NCBI RefSeq assembly: GCF_025144335.1
Contig: NZ_CP083539.1
Location: 2,233,501-2,297,500 of the forward strand
DNA: 64,000 bases
From: Jannaschia sp. W003
GTDB taxonomy: Bacteria; Pseudomonadota; Alphaproteobacteria; Rhodobacterales; Rhodobacteraceae
Direction: 5' to 3'
Shown: piece after piece, positions 38,953 through 47,186 of the stretch
Position numbering within the stretch: the stretch's first letter is position 1
Layout of the letters: the number at the start of each line of letters is the position of its first letter
Made by a program: the position numbers and the translations under genes
The notes under the pieces: model-generated
Database searches by the model: none
Told to the model about the DNA's origin: nothing
Seen by the model: only the letters and a program-made list of their open reading frames with translations

Positions 38953-39042
38953 TGGCGGACAGGAAGGGATTCGAACCCTCGAGACGGTCTCCCGCCTACG
39001 CACTTTCCAGGCGCGCGCCTTCGACCACTCGGCCACCTGTCC
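38953..39042 (-). tRNA. tRNA-Ser (anticodon GGA)
   Basis: A 90-base gene reads on the minus strand from 39042. The acceptor stem GGACAGG / CCTGTCC pairs perfectly. The D-arm is TGGCCGAGTGGTCGAAGGC, the anticodon loop CTGGAAA, then a long variable arm (as expected for Ser) and T-arm GAGGG-TTCGAAT-CCCTT. The discriminator is G and the CCA end is encoded (38953-38955). It reads UCC/UCU codons. Confidence 0.96.
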
Positions 39043-40793: not shown

Positions 40794-41783
40794 CTACCCC
40801 TTCACGTCCACCACGACGCGCCCGCGCACCTGGCCCTTCAGGATGTCGGCGCCCAGCCGCGGCAGGTCGTCCAAGGTGGCGGGCACCACCATCGCCTCCA
40901 GCTTCTCCATCGGCAGCAGCTCGGCGATGCGCGTCCACGCGCGGACCCGCGACTCGTAGGGCTGCATCACGCTGTCGATCCCCAGGAGGTTCACGCCCCG
41001 CAGCAGGAACGGCACCACGGTGGCGGGCAGGTTGGCCCCTCCGGCGAGGCCCACGGCCGCGACGCTCGCCCCATACCGCATCTGCCCCAGCACGCGGGCC
41101 AGCATCGCGCCGCCCACGGCGTCCACGCAGCCGCCCCAGGACTCGGACTCGAGCGGGCGCTTCACGGTCTCCGCCAGATCGGCGCGCGGCACGATCTGCG
41201 TGGCGCCCAGGCTCCGCAGGTACTCCTCCTGCTCGGGGCGCCCCGTCACGGCGGCCACGTCGTGGCCCATCGCCGCGAGCAGCGCCACCGCCACCGAGCC
41301 CACGCCGCCCGCGGCGCCGGTCACCAGGATCGGGTCGGCCTTGAGCCCATGGTCCTCCAGCGCCTGGACGGCGAGCATCGCCGTGAAGCCGGCGGTCCCG
41401 ATCGCCATGGCCTGCCGCGTCGTCAGCCCCTCGGGCAGCGGCACCAGCCAGTCGGCGCGCACGCGCGCCTTCTCGGCGTAGCCGCCCCAGTGCGCCTCGC
41501 CCACGCGCCAGCCGGTCAGCACCACCTTGTCGCCCGCCTTGTAGCGGTCGTCCGAGGAGGCCTCCACGGTGCCCGCGAAGTCGATGCCCGGCACGTGGGG
41601 ATAGTTGCGCACCAGACCGCCGCCGGGGCCGATGCACAGCCCGTCCTTGTAGTTCACCGTGGAGTGCTCGACCGCCACCGTGACCTCGGTCTCGGGCAGC
41701 CGCGACTCGTCGATGCGCTGCACGGAGGCCGCGGTCTCGCCGTCCTCGCCCTTCTCGACCACGAGGGCCCTGATCGTCGCCAT
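40794..41783 (-). CDS. acuI: Acryloyl-CoA reductase AcuI (MDR family)
   Basis: A 329-residue zinc-free medium-chain reductase predicted to reduce acryloyl-CoA to propionyl-CoA with NADPH. The active-site region NYKDGLCIGPGGGLVRNYPHVPGIDFAG (near residue 44), the nucleotide motif LVTGAAGGVGSVAVALLAAMGH (near 153) and TGRPEQEEYL (NADPH 2'-phosphate contact) are visible. Being the last gene of the dmdA operon, 5 bases after dmdA, it matches the dmdA-acuI pair known from Ruegeria pomeroyi, where AcuI protects against acrylate products of DMSP. Confidence 0.93.
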   Translation of the reverse strand: MATIRALVVEKGEDGETAASVQRIDESRLPETEVTVAVEHSTVNYKDGLCIGPGGGLVRNYPHVPGIDFAGTVEASSDDRYKAGDKVVLTGWRVGEAHWGGYAEKARVRADWLVPLPEGLTTRQAMAIGTAGFTAMLAVQALEDHGLKADPILVTGAAGGVGSVAVALLAAMGHDVAAVTGRPEQEEYLRSLGATQIVPRADLAETVKRPLESESWGGCVDAVGGAMLARVLGQMRYGASVAAVGLAGGANLPATVVPFLLRGVNLLGIDSVMQPYESRVRAWTRIAELLPMEKLEAMVVPATLDDLPRLGADILKGQVRGRVVVDVKG

Positions 41784-41788
41784 TGTCG

Positions 41789-42868
41789 CTACCTCCAGAA
41801 TGTCTCGCGCAAGCGCGCCCGCTTCGGCCCGTCCTGCGTGTGTACCACCACCTCGGTGCCGGCGTCCCAGCGGCGGTCGATCATGCCGATCGCGACGCCG
41901 CAGCCGAACTCCTGGCTCCAGGCGGCCGAGGTCACCACGCCCAGGCGCGTGTCCCCTTCCGTGATCGGCCAGGCCCGGTCGCACACGGGCACCGGCCCCT
42001 CCATCTCCACCGCCATGAGGCGGCGGTCCGAGACGTGCGCCTCCAGCGCCGCCCCTCCGATGCAGTCGAAGCGCTGCACGTACTTGTCCAGCCCGACCTC
42101 GAACGGCGTGTCCACGTCGCTCATGTCGTTGCCGTAGCTGAGCATGCCGCCCTCGATCCGCTCCACGAGGTTCGGGCAGCCCGCGCGCACGTCGAGGTCG
42201 GCGCCTGCGTCGAACAGCGCGTTCCACAAGGGCGCGGCCAGTTCCTGCCGCTCCACGTAGATCTCGAAGCCGCCCTGCTTGGAGTAGCCCGACCGGCTGA
42301 CGATCATCTCCGTGCCGCGGAACGGGAACCGCCCCCAGCGGAAGAACCTGAGGTCGCGCACCGCGTCCCCGAACACCCGCGCCGCCAGCTCGTCCGACTT
42401 CGGCCCCTGGATGGCGAGGGGCTGCACGTCGGCCTCGAATACCGTCACGCCGTAGCCGCCCGCCTCGGCCATGCCCTCGATCCACAGGCGCAGCTCGCCG
42501 TCGGCGAGGCTGACCCACCACGTGTCGGGGCGCGGCTTGAACGCGACGGGATCGTTCAGCATGCCGCCCGAGCGGTTGCAGATCGGCACGTACATGCACT
42601 GATCCGGCTTGATCGCCGACAGGTCGCGCGGCGTCAGCATCTGCATCAGCGTGTCGGCGTCCGGCCCGGTGATCTCCACCTGCCGCTCGCAGGCCACGTC
42701 CCAGACCTGCACCGCGCGCTTGAGGTGCGCGGCGTCCACGTCCGTGCCTGCGAAGGCCGCCGGCAGCATCATGCGGTTGTAGACCGTGTAGGCCGAGCAC
42801 CCGGCCGCATCCACGGCCGAGGTCCACCACGTCCGGCGCACCCGGTTCGACCGGGCCAGCGCGCTCAT
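41789..42868 (-). CDS. dmdA: Dimethylsulfoniopropionate demethylase DmdA
   Basis: A 359-residue GcvT-fold enzyme predicted to transfer a methyl group from DMSP to tetrahydrofolate, giving methylmercaptopropionate. TVYNRMMLPAAF, QVWDVACERQVEITGPDA, GGMLNDPVAFK, AIQGPKSDELAARVFGDAVRDLRFFR and SYGNDMSDVDTPFE resemble, from memory, Ruegeria pomeroyi DmdA more than glycine-cleavage GcvT. The adjacency of acuI strongly supports this. The family contains DmdA-like proteins with no DMSP activity, so enzymatic proof is lacking. The ATG overlaps the DinB gene stop (ATGA). Confidence 0.85.
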   Translation of the reverse strand: MSALARSNRVRRTWWTSAVDAAGCSAYTVYNRMMLPAAFAGTDVDAAHLKRAVQVWDVACERQVEITGPDADTLMQMLTPRDLSAIKPDQCMYVPICNRSGGMLNDPVAFKPRPDTWWVSLADGELRLWIEGMAEAGGYGVTVFEADVQPLAIQGPKSDELAARVFGDAVRDLRFFRWGRFPFRGTEMIVSRSGYSKQGGFEIYVERQELAAPLWNALFDAGADLDVRAGCPNLVERIEGGMLSYGNDMSDVDTPFEVGLDKYVQRFDCIGGAALEAHVSDRRLMAVEMEGPVPVCDRAWPITEGDTRLGVVTSAAWSQEFGCGVAIGMIDRRWDAGTEVVVHTQDGPKRARLRETFWR

Positions 42869-43377
42869 GCCGCCTCCGCCATGAAGGCCAGGTCCGTGGT
42901 CCCGGTCGGCACGCCCGCCGCGGTGAGCATGGCGTGGATCTGCCCGCGGTGGTGGGTCTGGTGGTTGAACAGGTGGGTGAGCAGCACCGAACGCGGCCGG
43001 CTCACCTCGCGCTCCATCACGCCGGACCACCAGCGCACCTCGCCCTCGCAGCTCTCCAGGCCCTCGGCCCAGTCCACGAGCCCCGCGTCGGCGTCCCGCC
43101 GCCGCGCCGCCCAGTCCGCGACCGTGCCGGTCCATCCAACCGACTCGGGGATGCCGCCCGCCTCGATCGGCGCGCCCCGGAAGCGGCCGAGCCAGACCTC
43201 GTCGGCCCAGAGCAGGTGGCTCGCCGTGCCGAGGATCGAGCCGAAGAACGCGCCCCGCTCGCGCCGGGCCTCGTCCTCGCCGAGGCCCTCCACCGCGGGC
43301 ACCAGCCATTCGTCCTGCCACGCGTTGTAGCGGGCCATCATCCGCACCCAGCCGGGCGTGACGAGCGCCTCGCTCAC
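42865..43377 (-). CDS. DinB/YfiT-fold protein in the dmdA operon
   Basis: 170 residues. A four-helix-bundle DinB-type protein: the motif TASHLLWADEVWLGRF (residues ~51-66) and THLFNHQTHHRGQIHAML near the C-terminus carry the His residues that bind a divalent metal in this family. The family includes thiol-dependent transferases as well as proteins of unknown role. The GTG start at 43377 overlaps the DUF1326 stop (GTGA) and the TGA overlaps the dmdA ATG, so it is translated with both. Confidence 0.85.
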   Translation of the reverse strand: MSEALVTPGWVRMMARYNAWQDEWLVPAVEGLGEDEARRERGAFFGSILGTASHLLWADEVWLGRFRGAPIEAGGIPESVGWTGTVADWAARRRDADAGLVDWAEGLESCEGEVRWWSGVMEREVSRPRSVLLTHLFNHQTHHRGQIHAMLTAAGVPTGTTDLAFMAEAA

Positions 43378-44057
43378 CGCGGCACCTCCGGCCCCGACCA
43401 GTCGATCTGGCAGATCTCGGCCGAGCGGCCCTCGAAGTCCCACACGCGGCCATAAGCGCGCACGCGCCCCCGGTTGGCCTGCGCCACGGTGATGTCGGGG
43501 CCCATCCAGTACTCGGTGTTGGTGGCGACGATGTCCTCGCCCTCGCGCTTGCCCTTCACGGGCACCACCTCGCCGGCGATCTTCTTGCCCACGGTCAGGC
43601 GGCGCGTCTTGCCCTCGTTCTCGTAGGTGATCGGCTGGCGCTCGGCGCCCATGAACTCGGAGACGAGGATCTTGAACAGCCCCGTCGTCCCCTTGGCCCG
43701 TCCCGAGAAGATCTCGATCAGCCCGAGGTAGGCCGCCTGGTCGGCGCGGTCGTCGATGAAGGCCGCGGCCTTCCAGCCGCCGCGCGCCATCATGCCGGGG
43801 ATCTCCAGCAGGAGGCCGACGTTCAGACCAGAAAGGTCGCTGTCGCCGTAGTGCCCCTCGTCGATGCGCACGCCCGACCACGCCTGGCAGACGCCTTCCG
43901 TGGGCGGGTGCTTGCCCAGGGAGACCACGCAGGGGCAGAACACCGTGCAGTTGCAGTTCAGGATCAGCTCGCCCTTGATGGCCCAGGGCGTCATGCCCCC
44001 CTTCGGGCTGGGCGACATGCGGCTCGACACCACCGGCGCCGGAATGCGATTGCTCAC
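43374..44057 (-). CDS. DUF1326 cysteine-motif protein
   Basis: A 227-residue protein of the DUF1326 family. Near residue 34 the motif NCNCTVFCPCVVSLGK contains four cysteines, with a fifth shortly after (GVCQAWSG). This suggests metal or redox chemistry. No signal peptide or membrane helix is visible, so it is probably cytoplasmic. The GTG at 44057 follows a GGAGGTCTTTC ribosome site and overlaps the DUF2182 stop (GTGA). Pairing with DUF2182 is common in genomes but function is undescribed to my knowledge. Confidence 0.85.
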   Translation of the reverse strand: MSNRIPAPVVSSRMSPSPKGGMTPWAIKGELILNCNCTVFCPCVVSLGKHPPTEGVCQAWSGVRIDEGHYGDSDLSGLNVGLLLEIPGMMARGGWKAAAFIDDRADQAAYLGLIEIFSGRAKGTTGLFKILVSEFMGAERQPITYENEGKTRRLTVGKKIAGEVVPVKGKREGEDIVATNTEYWMGPDITVAQANRGRVRAYGRVWDFEGRSAEICQIDWSGPEVPR

Positions 44058-44764
44058 GAAAGACCTCCGATCAGGAAGCCCGCCCCGGCGAGGCAGGCGA
44101 TTGCGATGGCGCGAGGGACCAGCGTCCCCCGGCCCAGTTTCTCCAGCGTCATCAGCACCGTCGCCAGCGCCATGAACCCGAGCGACATGGCCCCGCCCAC
44201 GAGGGCGAGCGCCATCAGCGCCCAGCAGCAGCCCAGGCACACCGCGCCGAGGCGAAGCCCCATGCGCCAGGGGCCGTCGTTCCAGTGCGCCATGAAGAAG
44301 GTCAGCGGCATGCGGCAGCGGCTCAGGCACGCCTCCTTCAGCGGCGAAACCTGATAGGCGGCAGCCAGCACCAGCATCGCGGCGGCGAAGGCGGGCGAGA
44401 ACGCCTCCGGAGCGGCGAGCATCTGCGCCGCCGTCGCCACCCCCGCGAAGCCCAGCCACACGGCGCCGTAGCCCGCCACCAACGTCGCCCCGCCGCCCAG
44501 CCTGTGGGCGTGGGCGATCTCGTCGTAGGTGGCGAAGGCGGGCAGCGCGGTGGGCAGCATCATCGCCGCGGCCATCAGCACCCACATCGCGAAGGCGCCG
44601 CCCCAGCCCGCGGCCTCGGGCGTCGCGCGGCAGAGCGAGACCAGCAGCGCGCCGAAATCCGGAGCGGCGGGCGCGGCCCAGAGCCACAGCACCGCCCACG
44701 CCCCGAGGATCGCGCCGTAGAGCGCCAACCAGTGCGGCGCGGTCATTCGGCCCAGATCGCGCAT
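44054..44764 (-). CDS. DUF2182 predicted metal-binding membrane protein
   Basis: A 236-residue membrane protein with about six helices. Conserved features are WVLMAAAMMLPTALPAF (the DUF2182 signature with Met-rich helix) and cysteines in SPLKEACLSRCRMPLTFFMAHW and GAVCLGCCWALMALAL. Met and Cys in and near the helices suggest soft-metal (for example copper) handling. The ATG at 44764 has GGGGAGG seven bases upstream; an ATG at 44794 also is possible. It is the first gene of the dmdA operon, facing the GntR regulator. Confidence 0.83.
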   Translation of the reverse strand: MRDLGRMTAPHWLALYGAILGAWAVLWLWAAPAAPDFGALLVSLCRATPEAAGWGGAFAMWVLMAAAMMLPTALPAFATYDEIAHAHRLGGGATLVAGYGAVWLGFAGVATAAQMLAAPEAFSPAFAAAMLVLAAAYQVSPLKEACLSRCRMPLTFFMAHWNDGPWRMGLRLGAVCLGCCWALMALALVGGAMSLGFMALATVLMTLEKLGRGTLVPRAIAIACLAGAGFLIGGLS

Positions 44765-44779
44765 CGCCCCTCCCCGGCC

Positions 44780-44808
44780 TTGCTCGAACGTCACTCACGC
44801 CGTTTACT
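44780..44808 (+). promoter_or_regulatory. Candidate promoter of the GntR regulator gene
   Basis: TTGCTC at 44780-44785 and TTTACT at 44803-44808 are separated by 17 bases. A start near 44815 leaves a ~28-base leader containing the palindrome at 44822-44832. Matches to consensus are moderate. Confidence 0.4.
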
Positions 44809-44821
44809 GGCAGAGCGCGAA

Positions 44822-44832
44822 TTGTCTGACAA
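44822..44832. promoter_or_regulatory. GntR/FCD-type operator between the regulator and the dmdA operon
   Basis: TTGTCTGACAA is a perfect 5-1-5 palindrome, the form favoured by FCD-type GntR repressors (TTGTCnGACAA). It ends ten bases before the regulator's ATG, in its leader, and includes the likely -35 (TTGTCA) of the divergent DUF2182-dmdA operon. One bound dimer could therefore control both directions. Confidence 0.6.
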
Positions 44833-44842
44833 ATGGTTTTCG

Positions 44843-45553
44843 ATGCCCGATCCCCTTCCGCAGATCATCGCCGGTGCGCTCCACGAGCGGATCGCCTCGG
44901 GCGCACTGGCCGAGGGCGAGCGCCTGCCCTCCGAGACCGACCTCGCCGCCGCTCACGACTGCTCGCGCGCGACCGTGCGCGAGGCGCTCAAGATCCTCGC
45001 GGCCCGCAACCTGATCCGCACCCGGCGCGGCGCCGCCGGGGGCGCCTTCGTGAGCCGCCTCACCTTCGAGGCCGCGGTCGAGGCGCACGTCGCCACCTCC
45101 ACCCTGCTCCTCAGCATGAACGCCGTCGACTTCGAGACCGCCGCCGAGGCACGCTACGCGCTGGAATCGGCCTGCTGCGACCTCGCCTGCACGGCCCGCA
45201 CCGACGCCGACCTCGCCGCGCTGGCATCGGGCGTCGCCGCGCTCGAGGCTCCTTGCGACGACCGCGCCTTCTGCGCCGCCGACGTCGCCTTCCACCGCGC
45301 CTTCGCCGATGCGGCCCGCAACCCGGTGCTCGGCTACCACCTCGCCGGCGCCATCGAGGCGATGCAGCCCCTGATGAACATGATCACCTACCGCCTGCGC
45401 GACCGCCACGCGATGCTGCGCCATTACCACGCGCTGGTGGACGCCGTGCGGCGGCGCGACGCGGACGCCGCCCGCGCCTCCTTGCGCGCGCAGGAGGCGG
45501 CGATGGTCGCCCTCTACCACCGCCGCCTTGCGGCGCCCGTGGCGCCCGCCTAG
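44843..45553 (+). CDS. GntR-family (FCD subfamily) regulator of the dmdA operon
   Basis: A 236-residue regulator. The N-terminal winged helix is in RLPSETDLAAAHDCSRATVREALKILAARNLIRTRRG. The all-helical FCD effector domain begins near residue 80, with FHRAFADAARNPVL and the C-terminal RHYHALVDAVRRRDADAARASL supplying metal-binding His residues. It diverges from the dmdA operon, like the GntR gene next to dmdA in Ruegeria pomeroyi. DMSP or acrylate are plausible effectors. Ribosome-binding sequence is weak, which may favour low expression. Confidence 0.88.
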   Translation: MPDPLPQIIAGALHERIASGALAEGERLPSETDLAAAHDCSRATVREALKILAARNLIRTRRGAAGGAFVSRLTFEAAVEAHVATSTLLLSMNAVDFETAAEARYALESACCDLACTARTDADLAALASGVAALEAPCDDRAFCAADVAFHRAFADAARNPVLGYHLAGAIEAMQPLMNMITYRLRDRHAMLRHYHALVDAVRRRDADAARASLRAQEAAMVALYHRRLAAPVAPA

Positions 45554-45590: not shown

Positions 45591-46625
45591 ATGACCGTCC
45601 GCCTCGCCGCCCTCCTCGCGGCCACCGCCGCGCTGCCCGCCGGCGCCCAGACCCTCACCGTGTTCGACTACTCGGGCTTCGAGGACGCCGCCTTCCACGC
45701 CGACTACGTCGAGAAGCACGGGTCGGGCCCCGACTTTGCGTTCTTCGGCGACGAGGAGGAGGCGTTCCAGAAGCTGTCCTCCGGCTTCCGCGCCCCGGGC
45801 GTCACCCACATCTGCGCGGGCTCGGTCACGAAGTTCGTGGAATCCGGCCTCGTGGAGCCGTGGGACACCAGCCGCATCGACGCCTACGGCGATCTGAACA
45901 CCGACCTGACGGGCACGGACGTGGCCGGCGGCGGCGAGGTCTACTTCATCCCCACCGACTACGGATCGACGGCGACGGCCTACAACGCCGACGACGTGCC
46001 CGAGGAGGACGTGGCCACCCTCGAGGTGTTCAAGGACCCGAAGTACCAGGGCCGCGTCGCCCTGCCCGACAACGTCGACGACGCCTACGCGCTGGCCTAC
46101 CTCGCCACCGGCACCACCGACTGGACGAACGCCACCGACGAGCAGTTCGAGGCCGCCAGCGACTGGCTGCGCGAGGTGCACCCCAACCTGCGCACCTACT
46201 GGACCGACCCGGCGGAGCTGTCGCAGCTCCTCGCCTCGGGCGAGGTGCAGGTGGCCTGGGCTTGGAACGAGACCCTGCCGACCATGGCCGACGAGGGCTT
46301 CCCGATCGGCTTCGAGCGCGAGGCCGCCGAGGGCTCCTCGCTCTGGCTCTGCGGCTACGTCAACATGAAGGAATCCGACAGCGACGAGGACCTCGCCTAC
46401 GACTACGTCAACGCGATGCTGGCCCCCTCCTCGGCCGTGCCGCTGATGGAGGCCGGCTACGGCTCCTCGAATGCCGCCGCCATGTCCGAGCAGATCACCG
46501 AGGAGCAGCGCGTTGCCGGCGGCCTCGGCGAGATCGACGCCCCCGTGCTCGCGCAGCTCCCCATGGACGGCCAGCTCCGCCAGAAGCAGTCGGAGACCTT
46601 CGAGCGGATCAAGGCTGGCTTCTGA
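45591..46625 (+). CDS. Orphan periplasmic binding protein, PotD/spermidine-putrescine type
   Basis: 344 residues. Signal peptide MTVRLAALLAATAALPAGAQ (cleavage near residue 20), then the PotD-type fold with LTVFDYSGFEDAAF, YFIPTDYGSTATAYNAD, and AYDYVNAMLAPSSAVPLMEAGYGSSNAAA. No permease or ATPase genes are adjacent, so its transporter must be encoded elsewhere. It follows the GntR gene by 37 bases, so the two might be co-transcribed. A strong terminator follows. The actual ligand (polyamine or another cation) is unknown. Confidence 0.85.
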   Translation: MTVRLAALLAATAALPAGAQTLTVFDYSGFEDAAFHADYVEKHGSGPDFAFFGDEEEAFQKLSSGFRAPGVTHICAGSVTKFVESGLVEPWDTSRIDAYGDLNTDLTGTDVAGGGEVYFIPTDYGSTATAYNADDVPEEDVATLEVFKDPKYQGRVALPDNVDDAYALAYLATGTTDWTNATDEQFEAASDWLREVHPNLRTYWTDPAELSQLLASGEVQVAWAWNETLPTMADEGFPIGFEREAAEGSSLWLCGYVNMKESDSDEDLAYDYVNAMLAPSSAVPLMEAGYGSSNAAAMSEQITEEQRVAGGLGEIDAPVLAQLPMDGQLRQKQSETFERIKAGF

Positions 46626-46770: not shown

Positions 46771-46799
46771 TTGATCGTCGGCCCGCGGGGGCCTACATT
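46771..46799 (+). promoter_or_regulatory. Candidate ssrA promoter
   Basis: TTGATC (46771-46776) and TACATT (46794-46799) are 17 bases apart. The start would be near 46806, which gives an acceptor piece of about 79 bases, the length expected for alphaproteobacterial tmRNA. Confidence 0.55.
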
Positions 46800-46805
46800 C
46801 GTCTC

Positions 46806-47120
46806 GTTCCTTCGGGGACTATGGTGATAAACGCGCCCGTAATAAGCGGATCGGACCCGGGGGCGGTACCCGGCGGCTCCACCAAACACCCTCATTGGGG
46901 GATCTTGGGGCCGAAACAGGATCGACGGACGTCTAAAGGGGTTAGCTTTTGCCCGGTGAGATACCACCGTTATCGGTTCAAGCTTTATAGTTGCCAATGA
47001 CAACAAAGCTCCGGTCGCGCTCGCTGCGTAAGCAGTGCGCAAGACCAAAACCTTAAGCCCTTGCGCCTAGCAGCGTAAGGCGGGGTCCGCAGGCACCTGG
47101 CAACAGAAGCCTGCACCTTT
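46806..47120 (+). ncRNA. ssrA: Permuted two-piece tmRNA
   Basis: The gene is circularly permuted. The acceptor piece comes first and ends CGGCTCC-A-CCA at 46874-46884. A ~22-base intervening segment follows. The coding piece then begins GGGGCCGAAACAGGATCGAC at 46907. GGGGCCG pairs perfectly with CGGCTCC to make the acceptor stem. The tag reading frame starts at GCC (46993) and reads ANDNKAPVALAA then TAA (47029-47031). A stem GCAGGC/GCCTGC near 47092-47117 closes the coding piece; both outer ends are approximate. It rescues stalled ribosomes and marks products for ClpXP. Confidence 0.93.
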
Positions 47121-47186
47121 CCCCCCGCGTTCCGCCACCGATTCGGGCATCCGGCCATTCCCCGCTCCCGTGGGGGCGATCCCGCC

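Follow-up and report, generated by a model that had tools for sequence, protein, structure and literature searches.

The locus analysed here raises the question of what three small genes, encoding a PpoB2 (DUF2182) membrane protein, a DUF1326 protein and a DinB-fold protein, are doing in one operon with dmdA and acuI, two genes of a marine sulfur pathway that is among the most thoroughly studied. The initial annotation of the window, that is, of the whole 64,000-nucleotide stretch of Jannaschia sp. W003 DNA, had taken the three as one module that might handle a metal or a thiol intermediate linked to DMSP demethylation. The features concerned are the following, with positions counted in the window:

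40794–41783, minus strand: acuI, acrylyl-CoA reductase family, last gene of the operon (TIGR02823, 441.8 bits, cut-off 297.25)
41789–42868, minus strand: dmdA, DMSP demethylase family (NF009133, 484.7 bits, curated cut-off 410)
42865–43377, minus strand: DinB-fold protein, optional operon member (PF05163, 72.6 bits, gathering cut-off 23)
43374–44057, minus strand: DUF1326 protein, predicted soluble barrel with five invariant cysteines (PF07040, 171.1 bits, gathering cut-off 25)
44054–44794, minus strand: ppoB2 (DUF2182), membrane protein, first gene of the operon (PF09948, 161.4 bits, gathering cut-off 28.7)
44822–44832, no strand: palindrome TTGTCTGACAA, candidate operator between the GntR gene and ppoB2 (from its position and the relatives' sites)
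44843–45553, plus strand: GntR-FCD regulator, divergent (PF00392, 54.5 bits, cut-off 27; PF07729, 73.4 bits, cut-off 24.3)

The gene coordinates and overlap sequences bear out the five-gene operon as first described, with four-base overlaps between PpoB2 and DUF1326 (GTGA, 44054–44057), DUF1326 and DinB (GTGA, 43374–43377), and DinB and dmdA (ATGA, 42865–42868), and a gap of 5 bases between dmdA and acuI. The span originally assigned to it, 41789–44764, captures a real operon but leaves acuI outside and misses the divergent GntR gene and the palindrome; its end point is an alternative ATG start of ppoB2 at 44764, while with the GTG start the gene extends to 44794. Exact four-base overlaps were considered as a trait common to the relatives and rejected, a PpoB2/DUF1326 overlap being possible in 27 of 112 loci; the corresponding counts are 24/44 for DUF1326/DinB, 11/35 for DUF1326/DmdA, 0/26 for DUF1326/AcuI and 0/5 for DUF1326/acyl-CoA synthetase. 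By the NF009133 cut-off the dmdA product is assigned as a DMSP demethylase with predicted tetrahydrofolate-dependent activity; its score lies below the 500–705 bits of most other family members above that cut-off, and it matches PDB 3tfh with 280 bits and the SKQGG stretch in common. The acuI product matches the PDB AcuI entries 5gxe/5gxf with 555 bits and is called AcuI-like, at family level, since its NF051456 score of 418.3 bits is under the equivalog cut-off of 440.

The linkage of the small genes to the DMSP operon is not chance. DmdA and DUF1326 occur in the same 16 of 20 genus genomes, side by side in all of them, and the 394 genomes of the family, which are related rather than independent and for which both DUF1326 types are pooled, divide into 144 with both, 25 with DmdA only, 65 with DUF1326 only and 160 with neither (odds ratio 14). 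Of the 95 dmdA genes checkable among the matches listed, 90 have DUF1326 upstream in the same orientation; this comparison includes the listed matches of genomes G000 and G065, and 36 DmdA-positive genomes have no DUF1326 position among the matches listed. The linkage thus recurs far beyond this genome, and the concern that the genes might adjoin dmdA only here does not apply.

The steadier partner, however, is acuI, not dmdA. Among 80 named loci selected by DUF1326 alone (the best 80 of 568 confirmed), acuI lies downstream in 69, and 7 of the 11 loci without it end within 1.3 kb; a DmdA-type gene is present in 55 of the 80 and absent from 25. The acuI-linked DUF1326 proteins form one clade with PpoB2 upstream, whereas acuI is near in none of 24 loci of the other DUF1326 proteins (type B); in two type A loci from another family an acyl-CoA synthetase replaces acuI. 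The notion of a single three-gene module does not survive, as, of the 16 positive genomes at genus level, 4 lack DinB, and the DUF1326 tree calls for at least 18 changes in whether it is present.

Whatever the first gene of the operon, the divergent GntR gene and a palindrome of the form WTGTCNGACAW stand before it. A site with at most two mismatches is found in 116/116 of the relatives' regions and one with at most one mismatch in 103 of 116, compared with 0.4% of base (not dinucleotide) shuffles, for a consensus picked after inspection of the window's own site and with a FadR-type pattern as a guide. The genome itself contains five exact sites, and the reversed control none. At the other four exact sites no further member of a wider regulon was recognised; each is located inside a reading frame or at its start, and on visual inspection these frames look like dnaA, a LacI-type regulator, an ftsJ/ppx region and an unnamed frame.

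The metal-binding motifs noticed in the window are present and conserved among the relatives. In PpoB2, which contains KEACLSRC and CLGCC, residues K153, C156, C160, C186, C189 and C190 are invariant in a 31-row alignment, likewise M70, M74, M78, M79 and M194, and the predicted structure is helical (pLDDT 84.6). DUF1326 contains the CNC...FCPC cluster, and its residues C35, C37, C41, C43 and C57 are all invariant in a 22-row alignment. The metal-site histidines of the DinB protein, H55, H140, H143 and H144 (numbering of P0002), are kept in 95–100% of 43 rows, and its PF04978 score of 25.2 bits is under the mycothiol-S-transferase gathering cut-off of 27. DUF2182 is Pfam's PpoB2 family (PF09948), and according to PMC2855505 the PpoB2 of Marinomonas takes part in copper transfer to tyrosinase, serving one client enzyme and not another; the copper function is known from this one member, in another bacterium, and is suggested here by family membership. 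A metal role for the small genes is plausible because they include a member of this copper-transfer family with invariant soft-metal residues, and to this extent the earlier proposal stands, although not as a tie to DMSP demethylation.

Our preferred reading, to which we assign a probability of roughly 0.35, is an acuI-centred operon for acrylate and DMSP, controlled by the GntR protein and equipped with PpoB2 and DUF1326 as partners in handling a soft metal, for which Cu(I) is the likeliest candidate. The operon would deal with acrylate, acryloyl-CoA and DMSP, with dmdA and DinB as optional members, and the GntR-FCD protein probably represses it at WTGTCNGACAW until acrylate or a derived CoA ester releases the repression. 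Within the membrane-plus-soluble pair, the invariant Met/Cys set of PpoB2 would carry the metal across the inner membrane, and the five DUF1326 cysteines would take it up or give it in the cytoplasm. Acrylate and acryloyl-CoA may use up the low-molecular thiols by which Cu(I) is buffered, and their loss would free Cu(I); a Cu(I) binder and conduit would therefore be induced along with the reductase, and DinB may be a thiol S-transferase against the same stress. The acrylate-responsive part is supported by the dmdA-acuI operon of Ruegeria pomeroyi, in which acrylate and DMSP induce expression and acuI protects against acrylate (PMC3338564). Counting against this reading are the two type A loci with an acyl-CoA synthetase in the place of acuI, the DmdA-positive genomes that lack DUF1326, and a constant chromosomal setting that could keep genes together even if they shared no function. 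An extension of this model, in which roseobacters and their relatives possess a system devoted to the uptake and hand-over of Cu(I), turned on by acrylate and required either for survival or for acryloyl-CoA reduction in DMSP breakdown, we consider improbable; if true, copper status would be one of the points at which the marine DMSP switch is controlled.

A possible, if somewhat doubtful, alternative is that the pair of PpoB2 and DUF1326 supplies copper to one specific enzyme required during acrylate or DMSP consumption. The sole studied PpoB2 works so, for the Marinomonas tyrosinase (PMC2855505), and the copper enzyme methanethiol oxidase (MtoX), the obvious client, co-occurs with DUF1326 at an odds ratio of 5.2 over the 394 genomes (105/104/30/155), as it does within the DmdA-negative ones (17/65 versus 18/160, p 0.008). 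However, the operon contains no copper enzyme, and MtoX was rejected as the client for this genome only, from which its gene is absent; nor is it enriched with DUF1326 within DmdA-positive genomes (88/144 versus 12/25, p 0.27), and elsewhere it comes with its own SCO1 gene (PMC5739008). In a few genomes an MtoX gene is found near dmdA (72 bases in G085, 1.1 kb in G363 and 2.7 kb in G043). Cupin DMSP lyases (PF16867), the family covered by the genome-wide lyase search, were also rejected as a common denominator: the window's own genome has none, and the association with DUF1326 is not clear (97/112/69/116, p 0.08; p 0.54 and 0.83 within DmdA strata).

It is unlikely that DUF1326 is instead an enzyme resembling acetoacetate decarboxylase, with an intermediate of the acrylate, propionate or methylmercaptopropionate type as its substrate and with cysteines that are catalytic or structural. 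The predicted model is a barrel that may be acetoacetate-decarboxylase-like (pLDDT 86.1, pTM 0.82), but its TM-scores against such structures are only about 0.4 with about 10% identity. The known enzymes of this kind work through a Schiff-base lysine, and in an alignment of 15 close relatives none of the fully or almost fully conserved columns is a lysine; moreover, the cysteines are conserved also at loci without acuI.

That the small genes serve demethylation specifically, for instance through a role in methanethiol or metal handling on that branch, appears very unlikely in spite of the odds ratio of 14 and the DmdA-type gene in 55 of the best 80 of 568 loci. Apart from the 25 of those 80 that have none, genomes without above-cut-off DmdA contribute 33 window-type loci, and in 25 of these acuI comes after PpoB2-DUF1326(-DinB) in the same orientation. 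At least 17 changes of dmdA linkage are counted on the DUF1326 tree, where DmdA denotes at least 120 bits to the window protein, taking in relatives below the curated cut-off, and where the DmdA share is lowered by pooling loci, 40 of them from DmdA-negative genomes; AcuI changes 6 times, against 6–8 with shuffled labels, its fewer changes being mostly due to its rarely being absent. Finally, 25 of the 169 DmdA-positive genomes are without DUF1326; demethylation therefore does not require it, the pair is dispensable, and the proposed tie to demethylation itself is not supported. An inherited neighbourhood, with the genes at a fixed chromosomal site in the family and no functional tie, has equally little to recommend it: the flanks fumC-sspB and photolyase-CMAS do recur with or without each member, such surroundings could prolong linkage without function, and the kinship of the genomes makes the 2×2 test overstate significance, but PpoB2-DUF1326-acuI stays while dmdA and DinB turn over, Stappiaceae loci (L264, L272, L278, L280 and L283) keep the unit without those flanks, the same family's other DUF1326/PpoB2 pairs adjoin acuI in 0/7, and the candidate operator is common to relatives.

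The acuI-centred operon with its proposed Cu(I) pair hints at an unrecognised link between copper and DMSP, in that the genes by which many marine bacteria degrade DMSP and acrylate, its toxic by-product, share an operon with two little-studied proteins, one of them from a family connected with copper transfer; the open papers searched contain no description of the DUF1326-PpoB2 pair and nowhere mention the family names. Should the pair prove to handle copper, this metal would be coupled to acrylate in organisms that determine what becomes of DMSP in the ocean.

Compared by passages of its published description (PMC3338564), the R. pomeroyi operon likewise has dmdA directly before acuI, and the window's versions fit the same families. 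That account begins at dmdA and has no small genes before it, which may explain why the pair went unnoticed, whereas the window has three upstream, and dmdA itself is missing in many relatives of the window locus. The ppoB1-ppoB2 tyrosinase operon of Marinomonas mediterranea (PMC2855505) is similar in placing a PpoB2-family membrane protein within the operon of a metabolic enzyme; the window operon, in contrast, is without tyrosinase, its PpoB2 is paired with DUF1326, and its enzymes are DmdA and AcuI. The type B DUF1326-PpoB2 pairs of Alphaproteobacteria combine the same two Pfam families, with PpoB2 near in 17 of 24 loci and the same invariant Met/Cys residues as in the window type. Unlike the window type, their PpoB2 lies downstream of DUF1326 where the genes are co-directional, with neither acuI nor DmdA near (0/24), and this split between clades linked to acuI or not, together with the candidate operator, renders the model directly testable.

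The five same-strand genes of the initial annotation all lie on the minus strand of the window, with the claimed four-base overlaps at three junctions and the five-base spacing ahead of acuI, and family scans recover its identities for PpoB2/DUF2182, DUF1326, DinB and the DMSP demethylase DmdA. The assignment of acuI holds at the family level (TIGR02823 cut-off passed) but misses the strict AcuI cut-off of NF051456 (418.3 versus 440 bits), and the fifth gene product is, as judged from sequence, an AcuI-like acrylyl-CoA reductase. The span originally proposed covers the first four genes and omits acuI, the divergent GntR-FCD gene and a palindrome:

40794-41783, minus strand, acuI
44822-44832, palindrome between the GntR-FCD gene and ppoB2
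44843-45553, plus strand, divergent GntR-FCD gene

The operon region is flanked on one side by a tmRNA (46792-47122, plus strand, tag ANDNKAPVALAA) and on the other by a tRNA-Ser(GGA) (38953-39042, minus strand). Among the best 80 of 568 loci, the named organisms whose DUF1326 protein comes closest to the window's are Jannaschia species (Roseobacteraceae).

The membrane protein PpoB2 and the soluble DUF1326 protein, hereafter the pair, are accompanied by acuI more often than by dmdA in loci of the window's kind. The 80 named loci (best 80 of 568), chosen on DUF1326 similarity alone, all contain acuI or a DmdA-type gene, with acuI in 69, a DmdA type in 55 and DinB in 31; seven of the 11 lacking acuI stop within 1.3 kb of DUF1326. 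A further sample comprised 40 loci from 39 family genomes with DUF1326 and no DmdA over the cut-off. DUF1326 is of the window's kind (type A) in 33 of these, where acuI lies downstream on the same strand in 25 and nearby on the opposite strand in two, while two have no such neighbour other than a DmdA-like or acyl-CoA synthetase gene, two have none of these genes near and two meet a contig edge. The other seven are type B, with PpoB2 downstream and acuI in none. Elsewhere in the class 17 of 20 loci are type B, all without acuI, and the three type-A loci have acyl-CoA synthetase next (two) or none of these genes (one). At dmdA loci in genomes without DUF1326, acuI is nearby in 12 of 20.

Every one of 116 regions (97 distinct) from the GntR gene to the first operon gene contains a site within two mismatches of TTGTCNGACAA, and 103 contain one within a single mismatch, against 5% and 0.4%, respectively, of base-shuffled control regions. 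Since the site is present whether the leading gene is PpoB2 (102 regions), DmdA (9), AcuI (2), DinB (2) or DUF1326 (1), one candidate control element appears to serve both the pair and the classical operon of dmdA and acuI. According to excerpts of PMC3338564, the R. pomeroyi dmdA-acuI operon is upregulated about 10-14-fold on DMSP or acrylate, and acuI is protective against acrylate; we infer acrylate or a CoA ester as the effector via the window's GntR protein. An orphan gene for a PotD-like solute-binding protein (45594-46625, plus strand; PF13343, 33.3 bits) lies 40 bases past the GntR gene. The 31 related reading frames in the compared loci are mostly on the GntR side, so the regulator may control this gene as well.

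To a protective role of the pair under thiol-buffer alkylation we assign a probability of roughly one in three. Acrylate and acryloyl-CoA would alkylate the cell's thiol buffer, and a presumably acrylate-responsive acuI operon would co-induce PpoB2-DUF1326 as a protective soft-metal pair, the metal being probably Cu(I). Alternatively, with a somewhat lower probability, the co-induced pair would deliver copper to some enzyme. Methanethiol oxidase co-occurs with DUF1326 across the family, but a genome search did not find it in the window's genome, which removes it as the copper client there, and in R. pomeroyi it comes with its own SCO1 gene (excerpts of PMC5739008). Two family genomes carry a methanethiol oxidase gene close downstream of dmdA (G085 C1:189548-192088 and G363 C1:233180-237421). 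That DUF1326 is itself an enzyme is unlikely, and a role specific to demethylation is considered very unlikely. Cupin lyases are absent from the window's genome and do not track with the pair over the family genomes.

DUF1326 is present in 16 of 20 genus-level genomes, with DmdA over the cut-off in the same 16 and, by coordinates, less than 0.75 kb away on one strand in each. The co-occurrence with dmdA in relatives, raised as a check in the initial annotation, is evident across 394 family genomes (both 144, DmdA only 25, DUF1326 only 65, neither 160; odds ratio 14.2). Among the matches listed, 90 of 95 dmdA genes are preceded, no more than 1.7 kb away and in the same orientation, by DUF1326, and the other five are not, the spacing being at most 300 bases in 44 of the 90, 328-817 bases in 38 (mostly about 550, space for DinB) and 1.5-1.7 kb in eight. 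A single change parts types A and B when 135 distinct DUF1326 sequences are placed on a tree, and across 92 distinct type-A loci, each with at least 3.5 kb downstream, PpoB2 is near DUF1326 in 90, AcuI in 84, a DmdA type in 47 and DinB in 37. The fewest changes on the tree are 6 for AcuI, 17 for DmdA and 18 for DinB, compared with 6-8, 26-39 and 27-33 after label shuffling; thus the small count for AcuI mainly reflects its rare absence, and DmdA and DinB are clustered yet have been gained or lost many times. A first tree of 140 rows gave 6, 19 and 19 changes, respectively, and one change for the side of PpoB2.

Mere shared neighbourhood is likewise very unlikely: five Roseibium/Labrenzia loci (L264, L272, L278, L283 and L280, which stops early) retain GntR, PpoB2 and DUF1326 with acuI and/or dmdA, outside the home family (Hyphomicrobiales; Roseibium is in the Stappiaceae), and none of the five is bordered by fumC-sspB or photolyase-CMAS, flanks often seen in the home family. 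The order PpoB2, DUF1326, DmdA, acyl-CoA synthetase, AcuI is seen in two Labrenzia loci and one alphaproteobacterium (L240, L264, L278), where the substrate of the synthetase may be MMPA or acrylate. Two loci of another alphaproteobacterial family (L180, L182) have an acyl-CoA synthetase gene after PpoB2-DUF1326 (NF006020, 826 and 835 bits against a cut-off of 677); a few kb off lies an M24 protein resembling DddP, which at 387 and 398 bits stays below the DddP cut-off of 600. GcvT-family DmdA-like proteins stand directly ahead of PpoB2 or acyl-CoA synthetase in L151, L152, L155 and L293; the two scanned reach 368 (L152) and 349 bits (L293), below the DmdA cut-off of 410 (NF009133), and these proteins are possibly a second demethylase type tied to the PpoB2-DUF1326 unit. 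A short DUF1326-like stretch (44 bits) between GntR and acyl-CoA synthetase/dmdA in L201 (10342-10665, minus strand), whose genome is scored as DUF1326-negative in our counts, is perhaps a relic of a lost gene.

DUF1326, DUF2182 and their Pfam numbers are absent from a collection of 5.39 million open-access papers; so is COG5588, presumably the DUF1326 orthologous group, and COG5486 occurs there only in a Marinomonas review. No open paper listed for dmdA together with acuI, operon and GntR, for dmdA together with DinB and acrylate (25 of 90 matches listed), or for DMSP together with copper chaperones in Roseobacter was about the pair, and no description of it was noted in excerpts of PMC3338564, PMC4334477, PMC5395565 and PMC5739008. 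The linkage of dmdA to acuI is already known, and PpoB2-DUF1326 together with this known operon is well supported as a genomic unit, its functional roles being proposals.
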